From an uncultured Candidatus Binatia bacterium (GTDB lineage: Bacteria > Desulfobacterota > Binatia > Bin18): a stretch of 64,000 nucleotides of DNA. The notes beneath the pieces were generated by a model. The model ran no database searches. It was not told the origin of the DNA and saw only the letters and a program-made list of their open reading frames with translations. The stretch is taken from assembly GCA_958296235.1 (NCBI GenBank), contig OY282457.1, forward strand, positions 4,273,338 through 4,337,337, given 5' to 3'. Shown piece by piece: positions 2,442 through 8,724 of the stretch; positions within the stretch are counted from its first letter, which is position 1, and the number at the start of each line of letters is the position of its first letter. The position numbers and the translations under genes are program-made.

Positions 2442-2473
2442 GCTTGCAAGAGTTAGCGTTTTTTGTTAGCATG
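2442..2473 (+). promoter_or_regulatory. Promoter/operator of the XRE regulator
   Basis: TTGCAA (2444-2449) and TAGCAT (2467-2472) are 17 bases apart, a good sigma-70 promoter. The spacer includes AGTTAGCG, which is repeated in the phasin promoter at 2893-2927 and is not needed for sigma-70 binding. It is probably an operator read by the adjacent XRE protein (inference). Confidence 0.6.
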
Positions 2474-2479
2474 CCGTAT

Positions 2480-2848
2480 ATGGCCCAGAAGCAACCGGAC
2501 CCATACGCCACACTTGGAGAATTTATTAAGCGCCAGCGTGAGTTATCGCAGCTTTCTCTGCGGCAGCTAGCGGACATATGCGGAATCTCCAATCCCTACC
2601 TCAGCCAGATTGAGCGCGGGCTGCGGACGCCGAGCAGCATGATCCTGCAGTCGCTGGCTAAGGGGCTGCGCATTTCAGCCGAAACCCTGTATACCCAAGC
2701 CGGCATCCTTGACCCGCAAGAAGCTGAGGAGAGCGATGTGATCAAAGCAGTTCTGCACGATCCCGACCTGTCCGCCCGCCAGCGTGAAATGATGATCGAT
2801 ATGTACCGGTCATTTCGACAGGTGAATGAAACCAGCAGCACGACTTAA
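2480..2848 (+). CDS. XRE-family transcriptional regulator
   Basis: This is a small DNA-binding protein of about 122 residues. The helix-turn-helix spans residues 10-65 of the chosen frame, with LSLRQLADICGISNPYLSQI as the core and RGLRTPSSMILQSLAKGL following. The short C-terminal tail ends in a helix (SARQREMMIDMYRSFRQ). The frame is open back to 2414, but the 5' part lies over a promoter shared with the phasin gene. The start is therefore placed at ATG 2480, exactly where transcription should begin, implying a leaderless message; ATG 2471 is an alternative. It probably regulates itself and the storage-granule genes downstream. Confidence 0.75.
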   Translation: MAQKQPDPYATLGEFIKRQRELSQLSLRQLADICGISNPYLSQIERGLRTPSSMILQSLAKGLRISAETLYTQAGILDPQEAEESDVIKAVLHDPDLSARQREMMIDMYRSFRQVNETSSTT

Positions 2849-2858
2849 AAAGAACAGG

Positions 2859-2878
2859 ATTGTCACGTAGGTGACATT
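2859..2878. promoter_or_regulatory. TGTCAC-N4-GTGACA operator upstream of the phasin
   Basis: ATTGTCACGTAGGTGACATT contains perfect 6-base arms (TGTCAC/GTGACA) around four bases. The geometry is that of a Crp/Fnr-family dimer site. It lies directly upstream of the phasin promoter, and a near-identical site precedes the Crp/Fnr gene at 4181-4200. Confidence 0.65.
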
Positions 2879-2892
2879 TTTTTACCCCAGGT

Positions 2893-2927
2893 GCTTGCAA
2901 AAGTTAGCGATTCTAGTTAGCATTAGA
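2893..2927 (+). promoter_or_regulatory. Promoter/operator of the phasin gene
   Basis: TTGCAA (2895-2900), 17 bases, then TAGCAT (2918-2923). The spacer begins AAGTTAGCG and the block closely matches the XRE promoter at 2442-2473 over about 30 bases. AGTTAGC occurs twice inside it, so a regulator site is likely superimposed on the promoter. Confidence 0.6.
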
Positions 2928-3384: not shown

Positions 3385-4098
3385 TCACTTTTCGTCCAAC
3401 AAGAGGCCGGCGACTTCTCGCAGACGGTCTGGCTGGACGATGAGCTTGCGCCCATCTCGGAGCAATACCTGCTGCCGTGCCAGCTCCTGCATATGCTCCG
3501 TCACTTTCTGGCGGGACGCCCCCACCAGGTCGGCGAGATCCTCATGGGTAAGCTGTAAGATCAGCATGGTCCCCCGGGCATCCTGAATCCCGAATTTTTG
3601 CGCCAATTCGAGCAGAGCCAAGGCCAGCTTTTGTCTCAGGCTGGAGCCCTGAAAATGCGTATAACGGTAGAGAAGGGCAAACCAACGGCCTACGGTTCCT
3701 TCCATCAGAGCGCTGAAATCCGTAAATGGAACGTTGAGCAGTGTCGTCACAAAAATATCTGGACGGACTGAACTGACCCAGCAGTCGCTAAACGCTTCTG
3801 AGCGAAAGGCGCGGTACATACCTGGCATCAGGGAGGTAATGCCAAATAACTCCCCAGGCGAGATGAGACTGACGAGAACGCGCTCTTCATCTGGACTGCG
3901 CAAGGAGAGTTTGACAACGCCAGAAATCAGGAAATACACCGAGTCTGAGGGCACTCCCTCGTTGAACAGGACGGTGCGTTTTTCGATGTGGTGTAGAGCC
4001 ATCTGACTCAGGAGCCGCTCCACTTGCTGATCTGAGGCCCAGGGAAATGCTTTCAGCCGCCGGATGGTTGTCACATTAAGGACCGGTATACGTGCCAT
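3385..4098 (-). CDS. Crp/Fnr-family transcriptional regulator
   Basis: This is a 237-residue protein with an N-terminal cyclic-nucleotide-binding-type beta-barrel (residues about 20-130, including FNEGVPSDSVYFLISGVVKL and SPGELFG). A long dimerisation helix and a C-terminal winged helix follow, with LTHEDLADLVGASRQKVTEHMQ split between positioning and recognition helices. No cysteine cluster for an iron-sulphur centre is seen, so it is not a classical oxygen-sensing Fnr. The start is ATG 4098; the open frame to 4251 would run over a perfect palindrome at 4181-4200 that is probably its own operator. The same core recurs four more times in this cluster. Confidence 0.85.
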   Translation of the reverse strand: MARIPVLNVTTIRRLKAFPWASDQQVERLLSQMALHHIEKRTVLFNEGVPSDSVYFLISGVVKLSLRSPDEERVLVSLISPGELFGITSLMPGMYRAFRSEAFSDCWVSSVRPDIFVTTLLNVPFTDFSALMEGTVGRWFALLYRYTHFQGSSLRQKLALALLELAQKFGIQDARGTMLILQLTHEDLADLVGASRQKVTEHMQELARQQVLLRDGRKLIVQPDRLREVAGLLLDEK

Positions 4099-4180
4099 AC
4101 GCGCTCTATCACAGCTTAGGCATAAGATGGCTTGATGGTTCACTACCCGGAGGGATACTATTTTTATCTGCTCTCCCCTT

Positions 4181-4200
4181 ATTGTCACCCAAGTGACAAT
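4181..4200. promoter_or_regulatory. Perfect palindromic operator upstream of the Crp/Fnr gene
   Basis: ATTGTCACCCAAGTGACAAT is a perfect inverted repeat with 8-base arms and a 4-base centre. It lies between the divergent Crp/Fnr gene (83 bases upstream of its ATG) and the lipoprotein gene, so it may control both. Confidence 0.75.
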
Positions 4201-4896: not shown

Positions 4897-5736
4897 TCAG
4901 GTCTGCGCATCGCCTTGTGAAGACAAGGCAACGGTCAGATGGGGCTCCCGTTCTTGTTCTTGTAAGCGAGAGAGCACGTCTGCCAGAATACGGTAGACCT
5001 GCGTGTTCACAATCAGACCAATATGGCGTCCGGTGACTTCCCGGTTTTCGCGTTCAGGGTCAATACTCGCGTTCCACTCCACGACTTCGTCCTGTTTGGA
5101 GAAGACCGAGGTAAAGCCGACCTCTTCGGGCATGGATGAAATAACGCTGCGATTGAAGTGGCAGTTGCAGTGGAGCGTCCCGCACTCAGACGGAAGCTCT
5201 CCGCGCCAGCGCCGAAAGGGTTGCAGCACGCGTGAGGCAAACAGAACCAGCGGGCTCACATTATTCGTGCGTTGAATGGGCGAACCCATAGTGACGACGT
5301 GACGGACCTGGTCGGGGAAATTTGTCCCCAGAAAACGAGCGAGCATACCGCCGAGACTATGGCCAAAAACAATCAGCGGATAGCCTGTCTCCCGAATGAT
5401 TTGGTTGAGGCGCCAGCGGAGCAAATGGCCGGTTCGATTCGGACAATCGATATTCCAGTCCAGCCCGGAGAAATACGGATTATAACCCATGCGGCGCAGC
5501 CAACCAGCTAATACTTGTAAGGTCCAGTCGCCAGCCAGAAAGCCAGGGATCAGCAGAACGGGCTCTCCTGACGCCCGCGGGACCGGTGGACGGCGGTAGA
5601 TGTCGTCTCGGAGCAGGGCGCACAGTTGGCGGTATGAGTCTGGATAGGCCGCGGTTAATTGCCAGAAAAGCGTACTAAAACGCTCGGTGTCTTCCCGTTC
5701 AGCGTATGCGTCAGAAAGAAGATTAGCCGGTGCCAT
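4897..5736 (-). CDS. Alpha/beta-hydrolase, lipase/esterase-like
   Basis: This is a 279-residue serine hydrolase. The fold is marked by VLLIPGFLAGDW (oxyanion strand), the nucleophile elbow VFGHSLGGM, a candidate acid in SKQDEVVEW and a candidate histidine in GRHIGLIVN. This arrangement is typical of triacylglycerol lipases and PGAP1-like esterases. The start is set at ATG 5736 (GGGAGAG before it), because the longer frame to 5877 runs through a palindromic regulatory block at 5775-5803. It has no signal peptide from this start, so it probably acts in the cytoplasm, perhaps on stored lipid or polyester (inference from neighbours). Confidence 0.8.
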   Translation of the reverse strand: MAPANLLSDAYAEREDTERFSTLFWQLTAAYPDSYRQLCALLRDDIYRRPPVPRASGEPVLLIPGFLAGDWTLQVLAGWLRRMGYNPYFSGLDWNIDCPNRTGHLLRWRLNQIIRETGYPLIVFGHSLGGMLARFLGTNFPDQVRHVVTMGSPIQRTNNVSPLVLFASRVLQPFRRWRGELPSECGTLHCNCHFNRSVISSMPEEVGFTSVFSKQDEVVEWNASIDPERENREVTGRHIGLIVNTQVYRILADVLSRLQEQEREPHLTVALSSQGDAQT

Positions 5737-5774
5737 GCTGTCCGCTCTCCCTCGGAGCTGTCGTCTGCAATTCT

Positions 5775-5803
5775 GCTTGCAATAAGTGATAACTTTTGCA
5801 AGC
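5775..5803. promoter_or_regulatory. Palindromic element related to the XRE-type operator
   Basis: GCTTGCAA at 5775-5782 and TTGCAAGC at 5796-5803 form an inverted repeat. On the minus strand the block reads GCTTGCAAAAGTTA, identical to the first 14 bases of the phasin promoter/operator. It sits about 40 bases upstream of the hydrolase start. Confidence 0.5.
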
Positions 5804-6565: not shown

Positions 6566-8035
6566 CTAGGCTGCACTCGTGCGGGTATCGGTCGGGCGTG
6601 CATCGGCACGAGCCGAGCGCTTTGAAAACCGCTCCGCCGCTTCCCGCAATTCGAGGAACGACGCCTTCAGACAATCGGCATACTCCCAGCCGTCCGGTAT
6701 GAGTTGCGGGTCAAGCGTGACGCCTATCGAGAGCTTCTTATTATAGCTGGCCACCGCATGGAACAGTCCCACTCGTGCCGCTAACGGGCCCATAGGAAAG
6801 AACGCCTGGCGTTTATGCCCAGCCAGGTACAGCGGTACCTGCGGACCAGGAATATTCATGACCACCGTATTCGCCAGCGCACTCATTGAAGGCGCTTGGC
6901 CGGCGAGCGCTTGCCAAGCTGGCGGGATACATATCGCCAGGGATTGCAGGGTATGGAAGACGCCAGCCTGATCCTGCTCGTACAGTTCCTCAACCGTCGC
7001 TTTTTGTGCGGACAGCCGTAAAATCGGGTCGGTGATTCCCACATACAATGGGATTAACATCGTCGCCGTCCGGTCCGTAGGTCGGCGTCCGCGTCTGCGG
7101 CGGGGCTCGTGTCGTTTGAGGTTGACGGGAGAAGCAACACGGAGCTCCAGACCGTCTGTCTTGTGTCCCTTGGCCCGTAAATAGCGCCCAATGCCCCCAG
7201 CAATAATTGCCAGCACAACATCGTTTACGGTTCCTCTCAGAACCGAACGAATGAAGCGCGCTTCAGCAAAAGAAAATTCGAGCCACGTCAACTGTCGCTG
7301 GCCTGACAGCGCGGCATTAAATGGGGTGCGCGGCACAGGTTGCATGAGGGTTGGCATAACACTCATCAGCGCGTTGCTTAACCGCGCTGGCCGCGCGCCG
7401 TGGAACGGAGAGCGCAAGACTTGGAAACTCTGATCGGCCCACCACTCGACAACCTCAGTCATGCGGTCTCGAACCGCTTCCTGCATAAGCGTCACAGCAT
7501 CGGGAATGGCTTCAGGCTCCCACAAAGCGCGCGGTGGTGAGCTGTGTCCACTCTCGGGTTTCAGGTCATGCAGGACAAGCATCAGATCAATGCCCGAGAC
7601 GCCTTCCAGCATCGCTTGGTGAACGCGAGCCAGGACCATGGTGTCGCCGTCCGGCCGTCCGTGGAGAAGCGTCAGTTTCCATAAGGGCCGGTTTCGGTCC
7701 AATGGAGCGCTAAACAGTTGACTGCATACCTGAGAAATCACCCGATCATCGGCAGGCGGAGGGAGGGTGACTTCGTCTACATGATAGTCAAGATCGAAAT
7801 CCGGATCGTCCTCCCAGGTCGGATGGGCAATGTTCAGAGGGGCGAAAACAGCCTTCTGACGATACTGGGGCAGGCGGTCGAAACGACTTCCAATTAATGA
7901 ACAGAGTTCATCTTTTGAAAGAGGACCGGCATACAGACTACAGCCCCCAATATGCATGGGAGCGTGTGGTTTCTCTCTGTAGAGAAATGCTGCCTCAGTC
8001 TGAGTGAGCCGTCTATGTGTCCTGTCTTGAGCCAT
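6566..8035 (-). CDS. WS/DGAT-family acyltransferase with degenerate active-site motif
   Basis: This 489-residue protein matches the wax ester synthase/diacylglycerol acyltransferase family along its length: APMHIGGCSLY near the N-terminus, NRPLWKLTLL, TVNDVVLAIIAGGIGRYL (the conserved ND motif), and NIPGPQVPLYLAGHK with SYNKKLSIGVTLD at the C-terminus. The catalytic HHxxxDG motif, expected near residue 140, reads VHQAMLEG. The second histidine is therefore Gln and the aspartate is Glu. The codons are CAC CAA GCG ATG CTG GAA GGC, so this is not a frame error. Either activity is altered or lost, or the protein has another acyl-transfer role. It lies just after the phasin-like gene. Confidence 0.85.
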   Translation of the reverse strand: MAQDRTHRRLTQTEAAFLYREKPHAPMHIGGCSLYAGPLSKDELCSLIGSRFDRLPQYRQKAVFAPLNIAHPTWEDDPDFDLDYHVDEVTLPPPADDRVISQVCSQLFSAPLDRNRPLWKLTLLHGRPDGDTMVLARVHQAMLEGVSGIDLMLVLHDLKPESGHSSPPRALWEPEAIPDAVTLMQEAVRDRMTEVVEWWADQSFQVLRSPFHGARPARLSNALMSVMPTLMQPVPRTPFNAALSGQRQLTWLEFSFAEARFIRSVLRGTVNDVVLAIIAGGIGRYLRAKGHKTDGLELRVASPVNLKRHEPRRRRGRRPTDRTATMLIPLYVGITDPILRLSAQKATVEELYEQDQAGVFHTLQSLAICIPPAWQALAGQAPSMSALANTVVMNIPGPQVPLYLAGHKRQAFFPMGPLAARVGLFHAVASYNKKLSIGVTLDPQLIPDGWEYADCLKASFLELREAAERFSKRSARADARPTDTRTSAA

Positions 8036-8123: not shown

Positions 8124-8579
8124 CTAGGCTGCGGCGCGTTTGAGCGGAGTTGTCGCGCGCTCGACCTGTGGAGATGCCGCTTTGCGCTCCGTAGTCCCCC
8201 GGAGAGCAGTCACTTCTTCCCTGAGTGCGCGAATTTCGGCTTGGAGTGCCCGAGTCTCGTTCGCTGACGGTAGCCCCGCCGCTTGGGTCAACCCAGTCAG
8301 AACGGTCCTGGTCAGGGCATTACTGACCTGCTGCCAGCGCAAAAACCCGTCCAGTGTACGCGCGGTCGCCTCTGCAAACTGTGGGGTGCGATACAAGTTA
8401 TCGATGCTCTGGGAGGTCAGCCGGACCATAGCATCATAGCCACCCCAGGCGCTGGTCGTTGTTTCATCATCTGCCAGGCCCAAACCCTGTCGTATGCCAG
8501 CCACAGGCAAGTCGAAGAATAGAGCCTTATATACTTTTATGGCATCCGTCATCATATGCGCGACATTATTCTCTGCCAT
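8124..8579 (-). CDS. Phasin-like protein with C-terminal leucine-zipper coiled coil
   Basis: This protein of about 151 residues has a helical body and a C-terminal heptad region (ALQAEIRALREEVTALRG), followed by a basic Ala-rich tail ending KRAAA. That layout resembles PhaF/PhaM/PhaE-type granule-associated proteins, in which the coiled coil oligomerises and the basic tail can contact DNA. The start is the ATG at 8579, 9 bases after AAGGAG; 8585 is an alternative. Two Crp/Fnr-type palindromes lie upstream and a strong terminator follows. The granule role is inferred from architecture and neighbours. Confidence 0.65.
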   Translation of the reverse strand: MAENNVAHMMTDAIKVYKALFFDLPVAGIRQGLGLADDETTTSAWGGYDAMVRLTSQSIDNLYRTPQFAEATARTLDGFLRWQQVSNALTRTVLTGLTQAAGLPSANETRALQAEIRALREEVTALRGTTERKAASPQVERATTPLKRAAA

Positions 8580-8658
8580 TGCCATTCTCTCCTTCATGTG
8601 TTTCGTGTGAACCTCTTCCACTCTAGGATGATTTCAGGACCCAACCAAGCAAGTCATC

Positions 8659-8672
8659 GTCACCTATGTGAC
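8659..8672. promoter_or_regulatory. TCAC-N4-GTGA operator, first of two before the phasin-like gene
   Basis: GTCACCTATGTGAC is a perfect 5-base-arm palindrome around four bases. It lies 80 bases upstream of the phasin-like start and matches the site in front of the Crp/Fnr gene. Confidence 0.6.
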
Positions 8673-8708
8673 CATCGTTTCTGTTTCTTTGAGATAAACC
8701 CTTCTTTT

Positions 8709-8724
8709 TGTCTCCTGGGTGACA
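8709..8724. promoter_or_regulatory. TGTCtC-N4-GTGACA operator, second of two
   Basis: TGTCTCCTGGGTGACA has one mismatch from the perfect TGTCAC-N4-GTGACA arms. It is 50 bases from the first site, about five helical turns, which would place two bound dimers on the same face. Confidence 0.5.

Follow-up and report, generated by a model that had tools for sequence, protein, structure and literature searches.

A repeated operator-like box at XRE, phasin-like and lipase-like genes of a Candidatus Binatia bacterium points to a probable MLDSR-type storage-inclusion circuit

Why do the promoter regions of a transcription regulator and of a putative inclusion-coat protein carry nearly the same 31 bases? 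The question is raised by a 64,000-nucleotide stretch (hereinafter the window) of an uncultured Candidatus Binatia bacterium (assembly GCA_958296235.1, contig OY282457.1, forward-strand positions 4,273,338 to 4,337,337), in which a gene for an XRE-family regulator is followed by one for a phasin-like protein (Table 1). We propose, with a probability of roughly 77%, that the repeated element (the box) serves as operator for the XRE protein encoded next to it, a regulator of the type of MLDSR of Rhodococcus, which would thereby control its own gene, the phasin-like gene and a lipase-like gene while sensing storage inclusions; this reading is built on sequence comparison and on analogy with characterized systems.

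A preliminary description of this DNA, made from its letters, had noted a close match of about 30 bases upstream of the XRE and phasin-like genes. The two segments, 2442-2472 and 2893-2923, lie 451 bases apart in one locus and form an ungapped 31-base block with 26 identical positions; their best local alignment score of 19 compares with 7 for the runner-up in the same pair and with a maximum of 11 among 394 random pairs of window fragments. The duplication thus stands, albeit with ends that had been drawn slightly too far (2473 and 2927), as the identity stops at 2472 and 2923. TTGCAA (at 2444 and 2895) and TAGCAT (at 2467 and 2918) recur in both copies with the 17-base spacing described earlier; as sigma-70 hexamers they are weak (4/6 matches each), and a strict promoter scan returned no match. 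Written as three half-sites, the box reads GCTTGC-N4-GYWANC-N7-GYTAGCA, and the cores in the window are GCTTGCAAGAGTTAGC and GCTTGCAAAAGTTAGC, the latter being that of box 2. What had been taken for a partial copy at 5775-5803, upstream of the lipase-like gene, exists but is a full minus-strand site, running from 5803 to 5774, with one mismatch to the three-part pattern and a third part, GCAAGCA, in the same register as in boxes 1 and 2.

The box is confined to this locus in the genome, which was searched as one contig of 4,624,001 bases. With at most two mismatches the three-part pattern has three matches, before the XRE, phasin-like and lipase-like genes, as against none for the reversed control, and this was the outcome of the genome search for the combined motif that the preliminary description had suggested. 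Likewise, both matches of the 29-mer (at most three mismatches) and all three exact matches of the 16-mer GCTTGCAANAGTTANC are local, so that the spacer sequence is not a common feature of unrelated promoters in this organism. Relaxing GCTTGCAANAGTTANC to at most two mismatches yields 12 matches genome-wide versus 19 in the control; the nine lying elsewhere, all with two mismatches, are not above control.

Conservation was examined in a family sample of 16 genomes including that of the window (G000-G015), 15 of which have a clear XRE orthologue, with G010 giving only a weak match. Allowing up to three mismatches to the three-part pattern, the box is present upstream of 15/15 XRE genes, 15/15 phasin genes and 12/12 of the lipase genes found at the 15 family loci, counts to which seven closely related members of the same genus add little independent weight; no lipase gene was found in the examined DNA stretches of L053, L054 and L055. 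The scan gave 46 matches in total, comprising the 42 gene-linked ones, two from the XRE boxes of L051 and L052, which are palindromic and were also read in reverse, and two extra three-mismatch sites upstream of the lipase, one each in the window and L046; five column-shuffled patterns applied to the same DNA gave 1, 4, 1, 0 and 0. The mean majority-base frequency in the half-site columns is 0.97 for the phasin (n=8), 0.93 for the XRE (n=8) and 0.93 for the lipase (n=6) boxes, versus 0.54, 0.54 and 0.57, respectively, outside the half-sites in the same representatives. Before the XRE gene, the symmetric core GNTWGC-N4-GCWANC is matched at 10/10 positions in L051, L052, L053, L057 and L058, and the window's own core misses the full form by a T in place of C. 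By eye, the third half-site precedes the XRE ATG by about 6 to 9 bases in the other family members, the gap in the window being 7 bases. This conservation, together with the position of the box, places the true XRE start at ATG 2480; the longest open reading frame (ORF) runs from a GTG (2414-2848) and reads through box 1. Since the ATG sits only 7 bases after the -10-like element, the XRE mRNA is probably leaderless.

The presence of the box also follows the recognition helix of the regulator. Among 63 surveyed loci, 56 encode an SN[PA]YLSQ helix and seven have different or unread helices; a box was called for an upstream core score of at least 9, or for a score of 10 in the downstream stretch of 900 bases. 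By this measure, 44/56 loci with the SN[PA]YLSQ helix have a box, and a perfect core is found in 0/7 of the others, one of which (L092) scores 9, a value treated as chance. Control windows of 250 bases reach 9 in 1.3% of cases and 10 in 0/1,500, the downstream stretch of 900 bases being longer than these controls. Because the surveyed loci share ancestry, their counts are not statistically independent: the label takes seven changes on the tree, compared with 16.6 after shuffling. A sister group of XRE proteins (L059-L062, L092, L093, L095, L097 and L099), about 47-53% identical to that of the window, has helices such as SAAVLREIE where these were read; no perfect box was detected in those of its loci that were scored, and no phasin neighbour was seen.

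Beyond the family, one scan of genome contigs gave 32 loci with organism names, among which the near relatives of the window belong to Candidatus Binatia/Binatota. One sequence, titled a Klebsiella pneumoniae metagenome-assembled genome (L082; CAMBFS010000026.1), encodes an XRE protein 81% identical to the Binatota one, and its organism name looks wrong. In the Acidobacteriota loci L085, L086, L088, L089 and L090 the box, 378-423 bases downstream of the XRE start, precedes a PhaE-like gene (tested against PF09712: over the cut-off in L085, below it in L089). It is upstream of the XRE gene in an acidimicrobiial locus (L100), and in a solirubrobacteral one (L098) between a small gene without a Pfam match and a DUF3141/PHB_depo_C hydrolase. 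Ten genomes from outside the family were searched whole with at most two mismatches; the box occurs exactly once, beside the XRE gene, in six and is absent at this tolerance from the remaining four. In bacterium Ww353 (L101, 4950-4987), three consecutive palindrome readings of the GCTTGC/GCAAGC type precede the XRE gene.

In Actinomycetota, an XRE homolog (E up to 1e-15) was recovered from 97/296 sampled genomes, of which the best-scoring 30 loci (95,898 bases) were analyzed for the box. The perfect core GNTWGCN4GCWANC occurs in them seven times, always 37-171 bases upstream of the XRE gene and never elsewhere, whereas the match counts for six altered control patterns were 0, 1, 0, 0, 0 and 0; a best upstream score of 9 or 10 out of 10 was attained in 10/30 loci versus 1.6% of 1,277 control windows. 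The core of box 2, GCTTGCAAAAGTTAGC, recurs unchanged in two of these loci, L126 and L143, where the XRE gene is followed by one that, from its sequence features, probably resembles mycobacterial HbhA. In an actinobacterial genome with an HbhA-like gene adjoining the XRE gene (G105), a second perfect palindrome, GCTTGCAATTGCAAGC, lies at L175 1432-1447 near an ORF that by eye resembles aldehyde dehydrogenase. Nocardia farcinica has GCTTGCAAGAGCTAGC upstream of an XRE gene whose product is 50% identical to the window XRE over 111 residues (E 2e-38); the next ORF, without a Pfam family, overlaps the XRE gene by 4 bases, an arrangement also described for MLDSR and MLDS (PMC5504291).

The closest known system is that of MLDSR, an XRE protein of Rhodococcus jostii RHA1. 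According to its report (PMC5504291), MLDSR binds DNA at the operon common to MLDSR and the droplet protein MLDS, where its 16-base box was defined by experiment as GNT(T/A)GCTNNTGCTANC; lipid droplets compete with DNA for it, with sequestration or titration in vitro and in vivo; its effects are positive and negative depending on dose; and the passage on its homologs names actinobacteria only. The window shares with Rhodococcus an XRE regulator beside a gene that is putatively for an inclusion coat, palindromic half-sites close to GNTWGC with a 4-base gap, an operator-like site adjoining a promoter element, and the regulator's own promoter as a predicted target. It differs in having a separate box per gene with a third box at the lipase, a coat protein that is phasin-like rather than HbhA/MLDS-like, and its phylum, Binatota. 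Our literature search (XRE with phasin, polyhydroxyalkanoate (PHA) in Binatota, Crp with phasin, and MLDSR), which covered few subscription journals, returned no report of the circuit outside actinobacteria. The kind of circuit is known from MLDSR; its predicted occurrence in other phyla, the PHA-type targets, the lipase as a third target and the one-box-per-gene arrangement would be new.

Other regulators are less similar. A Foldseek search with the model of the window XRE (a helix-turn-helix (HTH) domain plus a long C-terminal helix, 99-119; mean predicted local distance difference test 80.4, predicted template-modelling score 0.56) has SinR (E 5.7e-5) and DdrO (1.8e-4) among its best matches, where most of the resemblance falls in the HTH domain and the functions, biofilm and DNA damage, are unrelated. 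PhaR belongs to a different protein family but illustrates the working principle that we propose by analogy for the window XRE, namely self-repression, phasin repression and release by the granule. It is described as a PHA-responsive repressor of phaP and itself that leaves DNA for the growing granule, with TGCRNYGCASMA as its DNA site (PMC6201568). The PhaR operator was discarded as a candidate, the boxes having no match to its consensus when compared by eye. Mycobacterial Rv0474, whose gene we take to adjoin hbhA, is likewise XRE-type and self-repressing, and differs in its described copper response and action on rpoB. Two reviews describe it as a copper-responsive regulator that represses its own gene and acts on rpoB, and its copper-binding motif is reported to be missing in the M. 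smegmatis homolog (PMC10961391, PMC10884836).

The preliminary description had read the identity inside the spacer as a protein site at promoters common to the XRE and phasin-like genes. Such a predicted site is strongly favored by the genome-wide uniqueness of the box, its in-register conservation in the family, its linkage to XRE genes across phyla, its likeness to the MLDSR box and its not being found with differing helices; it is not, however, restricted to the spacer, as the predicted operator extends over the -35-like and -10-like elements. What we infer on binding by XRE, the sign of regulation, granule sensing and activation by CRP can be put together as follows. The XRE protein would bind GCTTGC-N4-GYTAGC over the -35-like element, with a further subunit probably on GYTAGCA, covering the -10-like element, and so control its own gene, the phasin-like gene and the lipase-like gene. 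Growing inclusions, either PHA granules or neutral-lipid droplets, would pull XRE off the DNA, as in the Rhodococcus MLDSR and PhaR systems, and its release would increase phasin and lipase until no inclusion surface is left bare.

The phasin promoter would additionally be a target of a CRP/FNR-family activator placed at about -61.5, through a second candidate operator that the preliminary description had missed; the latter had both the site and the logic of the XRE box right, and the breadth of its distribution was beyond its view. The palindrome, of the form TGTCAC-N4-GTGACA, is present in 15/15 family loci at -61.5 to -63.5 with at most three mismatches, where transcription is assumed to start 7 bases after the -10-like hexamer. 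At CRP class I promoters the activator palindrome is centred near -61.5, and the predicted position agrees with this placement in 15/15 loci under the assumed start. In the genome, related palindromes (at most two mismatches) lie at 3,738,164, upstream of a phasin/PhaE-like gene with PhaC after it, and at 4,595,083, before a second PhaC-like gene; additional sites at 114,810, 2,386,716 and 2,595,482 have ambiguous targets. At three of the sites before the phasin-like, CRP/FNR, phasin-like/WS-DGAT, phaE-phaC-like and second PhaC-like genes, the palindromes come in pairs spaced 51 or 61 bases. Storage genes thus appear to share a CRP/FNR-type regulator, with the phasin promoter taking both inputs, and the CRP/FNR gene itself is probably autoregulated via its upstream palindrome. 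In the window, a T run accompanies the 2861-2876 palindrome, as it would in a terminator of the XRE gene; we prefer the CRP site because the palindrome recurs before the CRP gene and the phaE-phaC-like, second PhaC-like and phasin-like/WS-DGAT genes, although it may serve both functions at once.

Table 1. Genes, boxes and CRP/FNR-type palindromes of the locus, in window coordinates
Feature	Position	Strand	Details
Box 1, XRE promoter	2442-2472	+	Half-sites GCTTGC / GTTAGC / GTTAGCA at positions 1, 11 and 24
Hexamers overlapping box 1	2444-2449, 2467-2472	+	TTGCAA, TAGCAT
XRE regulator, 122 aa	2480-2848	+	HTH_3 6.1e-13; recognition helix SNPYLSQIE
CRP/FNR-type palindrome	2861-2876		TGTCACGTAGGTGACA; centre 61.5 bases before predicted phasin start
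Box 2, phasin promoter	2893-2923	+	Architecture as box 1; TTGCAA 2895-2900, TAGCAT 2918-2923
Phasin-like protein, 112 aa	2986-3324	+	Phasin_2 E 2e-4
CRP/FNR-family regulator	3385-4113	-	cNMP_binding 1.6e-14, HTH_Crp_2 3.8e-12; start uncertain, ORF to 4251
Palindrome upstream of CRP/FNR gene	4183-4198		TGTCACCCAAGTGACA
Alpha/beta hydrolase (lipase-like)	4897-5736	-	Abhydrolase_1 3.6e-8; start taken as ATG 5736
Box 3, upstream of lipase-like gene	5774-5803	-	GCTTGCAAAAGTTATCACTTATTGCAAGCA
WS/DGAT	6566-8035	-	WS_DGAT_cat 3.7e-45
Weakly phasin-like gene	8124-8621	-	Followed by WS/DGAT
Two CRP-type palindromes, 51 bases apart	8658-8724		At 8658 and 8709; upstream of phasin-like gene and WS/DGAT

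Several observations weigh against the box being the operator of an MLDSR-type regulator. The XRE boxes of L054 and L055 have two mismatches to the three-part pattern, and their middle half-site is poor. By the automatic score, 12/56 loci with the SN helix lack a box, including L091, L094, L096 and L102; this score returned no box for L054, yet the three-part scan detects one there. A comparison by eye on the better strand finds the window core in agreement with the published MLDSR box at 10 of the 12 specified positions and divergent at two. Taken by itself, the 16-base core shows no genome-wide enrichment in 12 actinobacterial genomes (48 matches versus 98 for the reversed control), and a regulon search using it was uninformative, the core being too common. 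Finally, the coat protein is termed phasin-like because its score against Phasin_2 (PF09361), 21.9 bits, is under Pfam's curated cut-off of 24.9.

How do other explanations of the box fare? It might be the promoter class of an alternative sigma factor common to co-expressed storage genes rather than an XRE operator, for it has two hexamer-like blocks 17 bases apart, the XRE ATG lies 7 bases past the second, and in many copies the sequence of the third block fits TANNNT. This would predict scattered target genes, yet there are only three sites, all local, and the conserved middle block is foreign to known promoter layouts; the distribution of the box across phyla, moreover, follows that of the XRE gene and its helix, and its sequence is similar to the known MLDSR box, all of which leaves this explanation quite improbable. 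A fortuitous resemblance, or a recent promoter duplication of no function, might be suggested by the two copies lying 451 bases apart in one locus. The score of the repeat is nevertheless 19 against a control maximum of 11, a third copy lies 3 kb away, and the box is kept in 15/15 loci while the flanks diverge, a conservation footprint that rules this out for practical purposes. It is unlikely, but a matter to be taken seriously, that XRE binds the box and senses a signal other than inclusions, such as copper or a fatty-acid metabolite, with the phasin being one effector of a stress response: the descriptions of Rv0474 as a copper-responsive self-repressor speak for it (PMC10961391, PMC10884836), whereas the same texts report the M. 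smegmatis homolog without the copper-binding motif, droplets titrate MLDSR in vitro and in vivo (PMC5504291), and in the window the regulator's predicted targets encode a coat protein and a lipase.

With the box read as an XRE operator linked to inclusion sensing, the evidence tips slightly towards a broader proposal, namely that a single ancient storage-inclusion sensor and its operator span at least three phyla (Binatota, Acidobacteriota and Actinomycetota) and both PHA granules and neutral-lipid droplets. The sensor would then be the XRE analogue of PhaR, with a DNA site that stayed almost constant as unrelated coat proteins replaced one another under its control. If so, lipid-droplet control in actinobacteria and PHA-granule control, so far investigated apart from each other, would come under one regulator and one DNA site, a further, testable interpretation would open up for the mycobacterial regulator now called a copper sensor, and the uncultured Binatota and Vicinamibacteria would gain a directly testable circuit for the control of storage.
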